Below are positions 41,143 to 45,320 of a DNA stretch of 64,000 nucleotides, piece after piece. This DNA is from Reyranella soli. Lineage in GTDB: Bacteria > Pseudomonadota > Alphaproteobacteria > Reyranellales > Reyranellaceae. Each line of letters starts with the position of its first letter. Position 1 is the first letter of the stretch. The DNA lies in contig NZ_BKAJ01000032.1 in NCBI RefSeq assembly GCF_007992495.1, positions 62,001-126,000 of the forward strand. The letters are read 5' to 3'. The notes under the pieces were generated by a model that saw nothing but the letters and a program-made list of their open reading frames with translations, searched no databases and had not been told where the DNA came from. A program made the position numbers and the translations under genes.

Positions 41143-42309
41143 ATGAAACCCGTGAATTCATTGATGTCCGGCCTTGGAACGACGGTCTTCGAGGTGATGT
41201 CGGGCCTGGCCCGCGAGCATCAGTCGGTCAACCTCGGACAGGGCTTCCCCGACGACAAGGGGCCGGAAGAGGTGAGGGTGGCGGCCGCCGACTATCTGAT
41301 GACGGGGCACAACCAGTACCCGCCGATGATGGGCATCCCGGAGCTGCGCCAGGCCGTGGCCGAGCACGCCAAGCGCTTCCAGGGCCTCGACATCGATTGG
41401 CAGAGCGAGGTGCTGGTCACCTCGGGCGCGACCGAGGCGCTGGGCGACTGCCTGTTCGGCCTGATCGAGCCGGGCGACGAGGTCGTGCTGATCGAGCCGC
41501 TCTACGACTCTTACCTGCCGATCGTGCGCCGGGCAGGGGGCATCCCGAAGCTGGTGCGGCTGGAGCCGCCGACATGGCGGCTGCCGCGCGAGGAACTGGC
41601 GGCGGCGTTCAGCGGTCGCACCAAGCTCATCCTGTTCAACACGCCGATGAATCCCTGCTCGAAGGTGTTCGATCGCGAGGAGCTCGACTTCATCGCCAAG
41701 CTCTGCCTCAAGCACGACGCTTATGCCGTGTGCGACGAAGTCTACGAGCACATCATCTTCGATGATCGTCGGCATCTGTCGATCATGACGCTGACGGACA
41801 TGCGAGAGCGCACGGTGCGCATCGGCTCAGCCGGCAAGAGTTTCAGCCTGACGGGCTGGAAGGTGGGCTACGTCACGGCGGCGCGTGAACTCATGAAGGT
41901 CATCGCAAAGACCCATCAGTTCATGACCTTCACCACGCCGCCCAACCTGCAGTGGGGGGCGGCAACCGGGTTACGCCTGGGCGACAGTTATTTTTCAGGC
42001 CTCGCCGCCGACATGCAGCGCAAGCGGGATCATCTCGCCCATGCCCTGTCCGATATCGGTTTCGATGTCCTGCCGGCACACGGCACCTACTTCGTGACGA
42101 CCGATTTCCGGCCGTTGGGCTTCAACGGCACGGACGAAGATTTCTGCCGCCACATCACGGTCGAAGCCGGGGTGACGGCCGTGCCGGTCAGCGCCTTCTA
42201 TGACGCCCCCGAGCATGCCCCACGCCACCTGGCGCGCTTTTGTTTTTGTAAGCACGACGAGACGCTCAACAGCGCAATCGATCGGCTTGGACGCCACTTT
42301 AGGAAATAA
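41143..42309 (+). CDS. Class I/II PLP-dependent aminotransferase
   Basis: A 388-residue fold-type I aminotransferase. It has VNLGQGFPDDKGPEEV and YPPMMGIPELRQAVA near the N-terminus, LVTSGATEALGDCLFGLIEPGDEV, LFNTPMNPCSKVF, and the PLP lysine in IGSAGKSFSLTGWKVGY near residue 235. The NLGQGFPD start and the size resemble methionine or kynurenine-type aminotransferases (YbdL/KAT class); the exact donor is unsure. It is divergent from glnB across 200 bp and precedes the TetR array, which might include its regulator (inference). Confidence 0.9.
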   Translation: MKPVNSLMSGLGTTVFEVMSGLAREHQSVNLGQGFPDDKGPEEVRVAAADYLMTGHNQYPPMMGIPELRQAVAEHAKRFQGLDIDWQSEVLVTSGATEALGDCLFGLIEPGDEVVLIEPLYDSYLPIVRRAGGIPKLVRLEPPTWRLPREELAAAFSGRTKLILFNTPMNPCSKVFDREELDFIAKLCLKHDAYAVCDEVYEHIIFDDRRHLSIMTLTDMRERTVRIGSAGKSFSLTGWKVGYVTAARELMKVIAKTHQFMTFTTPPNLQWGAATGLRLGDSYFSGLAADMQRKRDHLAHALSDIGFDVLPAHGTYFVTTDFRPLGFNGTDEDFCRHITVEAGVTAVPVSAFYDAPEHAPRHLARFCFCKHDETLNSAIDRLGRHFRK

Positions 42310-42499: not shown

Positions 42500-43132
42500 G
42501 TGTCCACAACGACGACCACCGCCCCACGACCTGCCCGCATCGACGGTCGCCGCCTGCGCAGCGAGCGAACCAAGCAGTTGATCATCGAGGCTTACCTCGC
42601 GCTGCTGCGCGAGAACCCGGTGACGCCCATGCCGACGGCGGCCCGCATCGCCGAGCGTGCCGGCTATTCGGTGCGTTCGATCTTCGAGCGCTTTCCCGAT
42701 CTCAACAAGCTCAGGGCCGCGGCGGCGGACTACCAGCTTGCCCAGGCGGCGGCACTTGCCCCGCCGCGCAACATCGACGGCGATCGGCAGACCAGGATCA
42801 AGTCGCAGGTCGAGACCCGCGCCGGCACCTGTGATCGCGGCGTAGCGCTGTGGCGCGTCCTGATCTTCAGCCTCGACCAGGACGAAGAGCTGAAGCCGCG
42901 GGTCCGCATCGCCCGCGAGCGCACCATCGAGCGCATGGAGATCATGTATCGGCCGGAGCTCTCGACGCTGTCGGAGCGCGACCGCAAGCACATACTGATC
43001 GCGCTCGAAGCCATCACCGATATCGAAAGCTGGGCACGCATGCGCGAGCTCTATGGCCTGTCGTTCGAGGAAGCGTGCGGCGTGTGGATACGCGCCGTCG
43101 ACCGCATGCTGCCGCCGACGCCGTCGAACTGA
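42500..43132 (+). CDS. TetR-like regulator, first of four tandem paralogues
   Basis: A 210-residue TetR-type protein. The N-terminal DNA-binding half reads DGRRLRSERTKQLIIEAYLALL, then IAERAGYSVRSIFERFPDL. The C-terminal half has DGDRQTRIKSQVETRA, ERMEIMYRPELSTLSERDR, IALEAITDIESWARMRELYGLS and VDRMLPPTP. The other three array members share each of these blocks in order, so they arose by tandem duplication. It uses a GTG start. Ligand and targets are unknown. The next gene follows after eight bases. Confidence 0.88.
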   Translation: MSTTTTTAPRPARIDGRRLRSERTKQLIIEAYLALLRENPVTPMPTAARIAERAGYSVRSIFERFPDLNKLRAAAADYQLAQAAALAPPRNIDGDRQTRIKSQVETRAGTCDRGVALWRVLIFSLDQDEELKPRVRIARERTIERMEIMYRPELSTLSERDRKHILIALEAITDIESWARMRELYGLSFEEACGVWIRAVDRMLPPTPSN

Positions 43133-43140
43133 GGACGATC

Positions 43141-43755
43141 ATGGGTCCGCCTTCGTCTTCCCCGGACGGCCGGCGCCTGCGCAGCGAGCGGACCAAGCAG
43201 TCGATCATGGAGGCCTATATCGAGCTGCTGCGCGAGCGGCCCGAGATTCCGACGGCCGCCCAAATCGCTGCCCGCGCCGGGATTTCGACGCGGTCGGTCT
43301 TCGAGCGGTTCGTCGACCTGCAGGGACTAAGCCTTGCCACTGTGGACCATGCCTTCGCGATGGGCGAGGCGCAGGCCGTCGCACGCAACATCGATGGCGA
43401 CCGGCAAACCCGCGTGCGGTCGCATGTCGAGACCCGTGCCCAGACCTGTGAGCATTGGCTGCCGGTATGGCGCGTCGTCATCGCCAACCTGGGCAGGCTC
43501 GACGCGCTGCGCGAGCGCGTCCGCTTCATTCGGCAGGTGATCGTCAAGCGCATGGAGCTGATGTATCGGCCGGAGCTCGAGGGTCTTCCCGCCCAGGAAC
43601 GCCGTGACCTCTTGATCGCGCTTGAGGCGCTGGTCGATTTCGAGAGTTGGGGCCGCATGCGCGAGAGCCATGGGCTGTCGTTCGACGAGGCGTGTTCGGT
43701 GTGGATGCGGATGATCGATCGCCTCCTTCCGCCGACGCCGCACGGCCAGCCATGA
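43141..43755 (+). CDS. TetR-like regulator, second of four tandem paralogues
   Basis: A 204-residue paralogue of the first. It starts MGPPSSSPDGRRLRSERTKQ and keeps ARAGISTRSVFERFVDL in the recognition region, RNIDGDRQTRVRSHVETRAQ in the centre and IDRLLPPTP at the end. The recognition helix differs from its siblings (ISTRSVFERF against YSVRSVFERF), hinting at a different DNA site. The start is the ATG eight bases past the previous stop; a longer overlapping frame is rejected. Its stop overlaps the third gene's ATG (ATGA). Confidence 0.87.
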   Translation: MGPPSSSPDGRRLRSERTKQSIMEAYIELLRERPEIPTAAQIAARAGISTRSVFERFVDLQGLSLATVDHAFAMGEAQAVARNIDGDRQTRVRSHVETRAQTCEHWLPVWRVVIANLGRLDALRERVRFIRQVIVKRMELMYRPELEGLPAQERRDLLIALEALVDFESWGRMRESHGLSFDEACSVWMRMIDRLLPPTPHGQP

Positions 43756-44378
43756 GCGGGACCGATATGTCGCCGCCCCGGCCGACCCGCGTCGATGGTC
43801 GGCGTCTGCGCAGCGAGCGAACCAAGCAGTTGATCATCGAGGCCTATCTCGCTCTCGCGCAGGAGAACTCGCCGCAGGTGCCGACGGCCGCCGAGATCGC
43901 CCATCGCGCGGGCTACTCCGTGCGCTCCGTGTTCGAGCGCTTCCCCGACATCCGGGCCTTGCAGATCGCGGCGACCGACTACGCCCTGGTCCAGGTCGCG
44001 GCACTGGCGCCGGCGCGCGATAGCCACGGCGATCGCGCGACGCGCATTAGGACCCAGGTCGAGACGCGCGGCCAGAGCTGTGAGCGCTGGCTGCCGCTGT
44101 GGCGTTCGCTGGTCGTCAACCAGGGCGATTCGCCCGAGCTCAAGCAGCGGATCGTGCTGTCGCGTCAGCGTGTCATTGCCCGGCTGGAGTTGATGTACGC
44201 GCCGGAACTGTCGACGCTGCCCGAAACCGAGCGTCGCTATGTCCTGATCGTGCTGGAAGCCCTGACCGACGTCGAAAGCTGGGCGCGGATGCGGGAATTC
44301 TTCGGCTTGTCGTTCGAGGAGGCGTGTCTTGCCTGGCGCCAGGCGATCGACCGGCTGTTGCCGCCGACACCTGCCTAG
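43752..44378 (+). CDS. TetR-like regulator, third of four tandem paralogues
   Basis: A 208-residue paralogue closest to the first: DGRRLRSERTKQLIIEAYLA is shared residue for residue, followed by IAHRAGYSVRSVFERFPDI. The centre has SHGDRATRIRTQVETRGQ and the end AIDRLLPPTPA. The ATG overlaps the previous stop by four bases, so the two are translationally coupled. It probably forms one operon with genes one and two. Hetero-oligomers among the paralogues are possible but unproven. Confidence 0.87.
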   Translation: MSGTDMSPPRPTRVDGRRLRSERTKQLIIEAYLALAQENSPQVPTAAEIAHRAGYSVRSVFERFPDIRALQIAATDYALVQVAALAPARDSHGDRATRIRTQVETRGQSCERWLPLWRSLVVNQGDSPELKQRIVLSRQRVIARLELMYAPELSTLPETERRYVLIVLEALTDVESWARMREFFGLSFEEACLAWRQAIDRLLPPTPA

Positions 44379-44407
44379 TTGTAGTTACTCAGCGGTAACT
44401 TCTGGCG

Positions 44408-44459
44408 CTTTGTTGCAGTTACGGCTAAAATTTGCAGCACCACAATCACAATTTGCAGC
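44408..44459 (+). promoter_or_regulatory. Repeated AATTTGCAGC motif before the fourth TetR gene
   Basis: AATTTGCAGC occurs twice, at 44429-44438 and 44450-44459, exactly 21 bp (two helical turns) apart. A related CTTTGTTGCAGTT sits at 44408. The same words occur before the first array gene. The spacing suits cooperative binding of a regulator, perhaps one of the array proteins. Confidence 0.55.
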
Positions 44460-44568
44460 TTTCGGGTTTCGGTACCCGGACTGTGCGAATGCCGACTTTG
44501 GCTTGCAGACGATCAATCCTGGCCGTTCCTGTGAATCGCCCCCGACCTGAACTGTGACTTGAACATCC

Positions 44569-45189
44569 TTGTCCTCCGTAATCGCTTCTAAATCTTCCCG
44601 GATCGACGGCCGGCGCTTGCGCAGTGCGCGCACGAAGCAGTTGATCATCGAGGCCTACCTCGCGCTGCTGCGCGAAAGCCCGCAAATCCCGACGGCTGCA
44701 ACGATTGCCGAGCGGGCGGGGTATTCGGTGCGCTCGGTGTTCGAGCGGTTTCCGGACCTGCATGCACTGCGCGTGGCGGCCACGGACTATGCCTTTACCC
44801 AGGGCACGGCGCAGGCCGTGGCGCGCGACTTTTCCGGCGATCGCTACACCCGCGTAAAATCTCACGTCGAGACGCGTAGCTGGATCTGCGAGCAGTGGCT
44901 GCCGTTGTGGCGCGCGTTGAACGCCAACCAGGGCGATTCGAACGAACTGAAGTCCAGGATCAATCTGATACGCCAGGCGATCCTCAAGCGCATCGAGCTG
45001 ATGTACGACCCCGAGCTCTCGACCCTGAACGAAACCGCGCGCCGGCAGACCTTGATCGCCATCGAGAGCCTGATCGACTTCGAGAGCTGGGCGCGGATGC
45101 GCGATTTCGGCGGCATGTCCATCGAGGAGGCGCGCGAGGTATGGGTCATGTCGATCGACCGCCTGCTGCCGCCGACGCCTGTTTCTTGA
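44569..45189 (+). CDS. TetR-like regulator, fourth of four tandem paralogues
   Basis: A 206-residue paralogue, separated from the third by 190 bp that seem to hold its own promoter. DNA-binding half: DGRRLRSARTKQLIIEAYLALL and IAERAGYSVRSVFERFPDL; centre: SGDRYTRVKSHVETRSW; end: IDRLLPPTPVS. It uses TTG, the only in-frame start that keeps the full N-terminus, and it lacks a clear ribosome site, so expression may be weak. The spacing and the two repeated motifs ahead suggest separate control from genes one to three. Confidence 0.85.
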   Translation: MSSVIASKSSRIDGRRLRSARTKQLIIEAYLALLRESPQIPTAATIAERAGYSVRSVFERFPDLHALRVAATDYAFTQGTAQAVARDFSGDRYTRVKSHVETRSWICEQWLPLWRALNANQGDSNELKSRINLIRQAILKRIELMYDPELSTLNETARRQTLIAIESLIDFESWARMRDFGGMSIEEAREVWVMSIDRLLPPTPVS

Positions 45190-45243: not shown

Positions 45244-45320
45244 GCGGCCGTAGCTCAGGTGGTTAGAGCGCCAGATTGTGATTCTGGATGTCGCCGGTTC
45301 AAGTCCGGTCGGCCGCCCCA
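45244..45320 (+). tRNA. tRNA-His (GTG anticodon)
   Basis: A full cloverleaf: acceptor GCGGCCG pairs with CGGCCGC, the anticodon arm CCAGA-TTGTGAT-TCTGG carries GTG, the T-arm is GCCGG-TTCAAGT-CCGGT, and the genome-encoded CCA is at 45318-45320. A G at 45243 opposite C73 (45317) supplies the histidine-specific extra G-1. Confidence 0.97.

Follow-up and report, generated by a model that had tools for sequence, protein, structure and literature searches.

A tandem array of four TetR-type regulators in Reyranella soli that probably share a DNA address and differ in their inputs

Four consecutive TetR-type regulators (P1–P4), encoded in a 64,000-nucleotide stretch of the Reyranella soli genome (the window), probably respond to different signals but act at one and the same DNA address, which appears to be self-directed, because the DNA-reading part of these proteins has hardly changed among the copies and the presumed ligand-sensing core has changed.

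Gene array and fold of the encoded proteins

All four open reading frames were consecutive and on the same strand, and none was broken (Table 1). The encoded proteins were 58–68% identical in pairwise comparisons, with a mean column identity of 74%, and the sequence blocks that an earlier reading of this DNA from its letters alone (the sequence-only reading) had quoted as shared were invariant across all four copies. Checks for unrelated subfamilies and for broken genes among the four found neither, which bears out the description of the array as paralogous TetR-like genes. As that reading also had it, P1–P3 are closely packed, with an 8-base gap between P1 and P2 and an ATGA overlap between P2 and P3, and a 190-base gap after P3 gives P4 its own upstream region; the spacing suggests that P1–P3 form one operon. 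The array lies between an aminotransferase gene and nnrD, as reported before, with tRNA-His ahead of nnrD, and no divergent target operon was evident beside it, nor was any other target gene seen there. Within the coding region of the aminotransferase (window positions 41391–41484), ARAGORN also called a tRNA-Pro(CGG), which is probably a false positive.

Table 1. Array genes, flanking genes and putative cis elements, with positions in the window.
Feature	Position	Strand	Description
Left neighbour, class I/II aminotransferase (PF00155)	41143..42309	+	conserved flank, outside array
M1 site TTACAATTTGCA, upstream of P1	42359..42370	+	motif match
M2 TTACTGCATTTCGATTGCTAATAT, imperfect dyad GCAnTnnnATTGC; putative operator/promoter of P1–P3	42400..42423	+	conserved element
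P1, TetR-like regulator 1	42500..43132	+	ORF, 210 aa, GTG start
P2, TetR-like regulator 2	43141..43755	+	ORF, 204 aa, ATG start
P3, TetR-like regulator 3	43752..44378	+	ORF, 208 aa, ATG start
Two M1-like sites AAAATTTGCAGC and ACAATTTGCAGC, direct repeat, upstream of P4	44427..44457	+	motif match
P4, TetR-like regulator 4	44569..45189	+	ORF, 206 aa, TTG start
Right neighbour, tRNA-His(GTG), then nnrD (PF03853+PF01256)	45244..45320	+	flank

The structure of P4 was modelled with AlphaFold2 on a family alignment of 70 sequences. The model (pLDDT 93.9) showed the TetR topology, with an N-terminal three-helix HTH (helices 14–36, 43–50 and 54–60, the recognition helix comprising approximately residues 54–60) and an all-alpha C-terminal ligand/dimerisation domain (helices 64–199). 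Those of its fold matches that carried a name (Foldseek, VIA-align) were TetR-family regulators, with VIA-align Z scores of 14.8–16.8 over 166–195 aligned residues, and a profile search matched TetR chains over the N-terminal HTH region. The array proteins share the common all-alpha fold, N-terminal HTH and ligand/dimer domain of the family (matches including FasR 6o6p, EthR 1u9n, KstR 3mnl and 2np5), but they are just 12–19% identical to the best-ranked fold matches and were assigned to no named subfamily. Pfam TetR_N (PF00440) matched them in the right position at 14.4–19.9 bits, below the gathering cut-off of 24, and an NCBIfam search gave matches far below cut-off only (BetI, FabR-like) and no equivalog. 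Judged by the predicted structure, whose fold we regard as confident, P1–P4 are TetR-type DNA-binding regulators.

DNA-reading head, sensing core and promoter elements

The suggestion of the sequence-only reading that changes in the recognition helix had made the copies diverge in DNA target was mostly wrong. The recognition-helix region (P4 residues 52–62) was 91–100% identical among P1, P3 and P4 of the window, the helix was nearly invariant across the genus in P1, P3, P4 and their unlinked relatives, and a comparison of the window with four close relatives gave a dN of ~0, with no amino-acid change, for the recognition helices of these three proteins. P2 alone clearly differed, with Ile52 and Thr54 replacing Tyr52 and Val54 near and in the recognition helix. 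It was the ligand-domain core (residues 64–150) that had diverged instead: identity between the window copies was 45–61% in this core, which had clade-specific residues, and 53–66% in the putative dimer helices (155–201). In the P1 clade, Trp110-Leu-Pro was changed to Gly-Val-Ala, adjoining the invariant Trp114-Arg115, and W110 was replaced by G in 96% of the clade members. These comparisons argue for a common DNA address with different inputs, the opposite of what had been suggested.

The M2 pattern TTACTGCAnTnnnATTGCnAATAT, counted as a match within 4 mismatches of its 19 fixed positions, was found upstream of gene 1 in 36 of 57 loci, in nearly all cases 40–106 bases before the conserved protein region. 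M2 occurred once in the window (0 expected in window shuffles) and was present in 15 of 31 whole genomes, once in each and always shortly ahead of array gene 1; a control search with the pattern reversed gave zero matches in the same 31 genomes. Its core 17-mer TGCANTNNNATTGCYAA had 21 sites in 65 genomes, at most one per genome; by coordinates, 20 of these lay at the array, and the lone off-array site (L183) fell inside an open frame, away from any family gene. An imperfect dyad, GCAnT-n3-ATTGC, makes up the core and has the size expected of a TetR-type operator; M2 could also serve as a promoter element or be recognised by some other protein. In 21 of the 57 loci, one sub-lineage among them, M2 was missing or beyond recognition (at least 5 mismatches), and it was not found at unlinked family members; the P1 recognition helix was unchanged in loci without it. 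In one sub-lineage, loss of M2 went together with divergence or loss of P3, but this amounts to little more than one event and is no proof of a link. Four loci of the sub-lineage without M2 (L060, L065, L069 and L085) carried a different, CTCATGATGAG-like dyad at a similar distance upstream of gene 1 and adjoining a TATACT-like box, and operator turnover is possible there.

The M1 motif TTACAATTYGCA had 14 exact sites in the 65 genomes, nine of which were in array promoters. M1 or M1-like sites were present at both array promoters of the window (P1 and P4), and the recognition helices of P1, P3 and P4 are conserved, both of which would be consistent with adjacent paralogs that use a DNA site in common, as in SAV576/SAV577 of Streptomyces avermitilis. 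The M1-like repeats upstream of P4 are 21 bp, or two helical turns, apart, and this spacing was kept in five loci (the window, L048, L050, L052 and L093). Scans of the DNA for sigma-70 promoters and terminators gave nothing above shuffles. Auto- and cross-regulation would be the simplest reading of the cis elements, with binding to them putative.

We consider it about an even chance that the array is an auto- and cross-regulating set of TetR repressors whose members use one DNA address in common and differ in their inputs, and that it arose by ancient tandem expansion. In the ancestor of all Reyranella-group members, a single TetR-family repressor gene would have been inserted between the aminotransferase and tRNA-His genes and expanded in tandem to give the four genes. 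As dimers, the proteins would use their hardly altered recognition helices to bind similar A/T-rich sites of the TGCAA/TTGCA type in the array's own two promoters, with the P1–P3 promoter read through M2 and M1 and the P4 promoter through the M1 repeats. Because the dimers would bind sites in its own promoters, the array would repress itself and cross-repress, and, with a ligand-domain core that varies from copy to copy, each copy would free the shared site upon a different small molecule. Protein binding to M1 and M2, repression, the differing ligands and the existence of other targets are what we infer here. Self-regulation as the sole function would be odd, and the sites at the real targets may be less strict.

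A layered or hetero-oligomeric switch, in which copies with diverged DNA targets and an operator each stand in a mutual hierarchy, is unlikely. The differences in P2 at residues 52 and 54 and the separate promoter region of P4 are in its favour, as is the similarity of the dimer helices, which makes heterodimers possible; but the near-invariant recognition helix of P1, P3, P4 and the unlinked copies makes different targets improbable for three of the four proteins, and the one experimentally studied pair of adjacent similar TetR regulators that we found, SAV576/SAV577 of Streptomyces avermitilis, forms homodimers and no heterodimer (PMC4051647). A closed auto- and cross-regulatory loop appears to fit the cis elements better than such a switch.

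Age, maintenance and distribution of the copies

Two trees, one of 190 proteins and one of 82, placed P1, P2, P3 and P4 in separate cross-species clades according to array position (bootstrap/SH-aLRT in the smaller, careful tree: P1 98/80, P2 100/92, P3 100/95 and P4 99/93), and the P2 clade was confined to the sub-lineage of the window. A recent local duplication was rejected, the AU test excluding a four-gene clade restricted to the window (p-AU 3.6e-5). The median within-clade dN/dS was 0.16–0.22, which is purifying selection. Since each of P1–P4 forms its own cross-species clade, the array genes are old, vertically inherited and maintained duplicates, with no visible gene conversion.

It is decidedly unlikely that the copies are redundant duplicates kept by drift or dosage and lacking distinct roles. 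Copy number does range from 1 to 5, the host genome holds a frameshifted unlinked copy (on contig C118), and some array loci contain partial family members, although these may be MAG errors; standing against redundancy are position-specific clades that span the genus, a dN/dS of ~0.2 and clade-specific core residues.

The host genome (9.85 Mb) belongs to the Reyranella group. We surveyed 74 loci from named genomes; 18 of these were unlinked and the rest lay at the array site, in the order glnA-glnB/aminotransferase, array, tRNA-His-nnrD-tRNA-Leu-tig. Nearly all Reyranella-group loci examined carried 2–5 copies, so the earlier description of such arrays as uncommon needs qualifying, as it does not hold for this group, where arrays of 2–5 genes are the norm. 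Among the 49 loci with both flanks, three full-length genes were present in 23, two in 14, four in 10, five in 1 and one in 1. P1-P3-P4 was the commonest gene order (20 loci), and the four-gene order P1-P2-P3-P4 was found in 8. Family members at E ~1e-86 or better were present in all 65 genus genomes and in one sister-genus genome (G086), and the remaining genera of the family had weaker relatives only (E ~1e-41 to 1e-48). G086 has one gene at the equivalent site, with upstream sequence identical to that of L113, and three further, more distant genomes of sister genera (G047, G048 and G050; loci L176, L177 and L179) have the aminotransferase, tRNA-His and nnrD with no family gene between them. 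One insertion followed by tandem growth would explain this distribution. A plasmid search by protein found no match to the array proteins. More distant family members occurred as tandem pairs unlinked to nnrD in sister genera (L144, L149 and L151, in G087, G050 and G048, respectively).

That the array controls its flanks (glnB-glnA, the aminotransferase and tRNA-His-nnrD), as its position, conserved in nearly all loci examined, might suggest, is very improbable, since the same flanks occur without any family gene in the three sister-genus genomes, M1 and the single M2 of the window are located upstream of array genes and not at the flanking genes, and the position is accounted for by an insertion that was inherited vertically.

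Possible outputs and significance

A second conserved locus (L104–L120) contains one or two unlinked family members next to genes for an FAD monooxygenase (PF01494), MFS, GST, PEP mutase-like, SET-domain and SBP_bac_5 proteins, and is likely to be a regulator-target neighbourhood. These members belong to the same family as the array proteins and have the same recognition helix; unlike the array, they number 1–2 copies per locus, lack M2 and have detoxification-type neighbours. In the host genome, an intact unlinked copy follows genes for a GMC oxidoreductase and a gluconate-2-dehydrogenase-subunit-3-like protein. Because the neighbours of unlinked members include FAD monooxygenases, MFS, GST and GMC oxidoreductase, detoxification or catabolic outputs are hinted at, as a lead only. 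The additional family copy in this genome (G000:C118:1562-2151, L140) is frameshifted and has probably decayed; an apparent TAA lesion in the unlinked copy at C105 was rejected, being a natural stop instead. M1 and M2 were rejected as regulon finders, as they had few off-array sites and the off-array loci compared shared no gene.

TetR repressors are usually single and located beside a target. A search of the available literature on tandem TetR arrays and heterodimers yielded mainly the SAV576/SAV577 pair, the nearest parallel found, and no paper on the Reyranella array. Like the array, that pair consists of adjacent similar TetR genes; its products both repress SAV575, act on common sites and repress each other's region (PMC4051647). 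The pair comprises two genes beside a clear target, SAV575, whereas the arrays here have 2–5 genes, are genus-wide and have no target in sight.

A bolder and rather doubtful proposal is that 3–5 paralogous TetR repressors, possibly including heterodimers, form a closed multi-input switch with one operator type located essentially only in their own promoters. If true, the array would integrate several ligand signals into one response ahead of any effect on an output gene. The array raises the question of what purpose a regulator without a visible regulon serves. It also constitutes a natural test series for the way in which the inputs of paralogous repressors diverge earlier than their outputs, being genus-wide and position-orthologous, with a DNA-reading head that stays constant, cores that change and a conserved element found almost exclusively at its own promoter.
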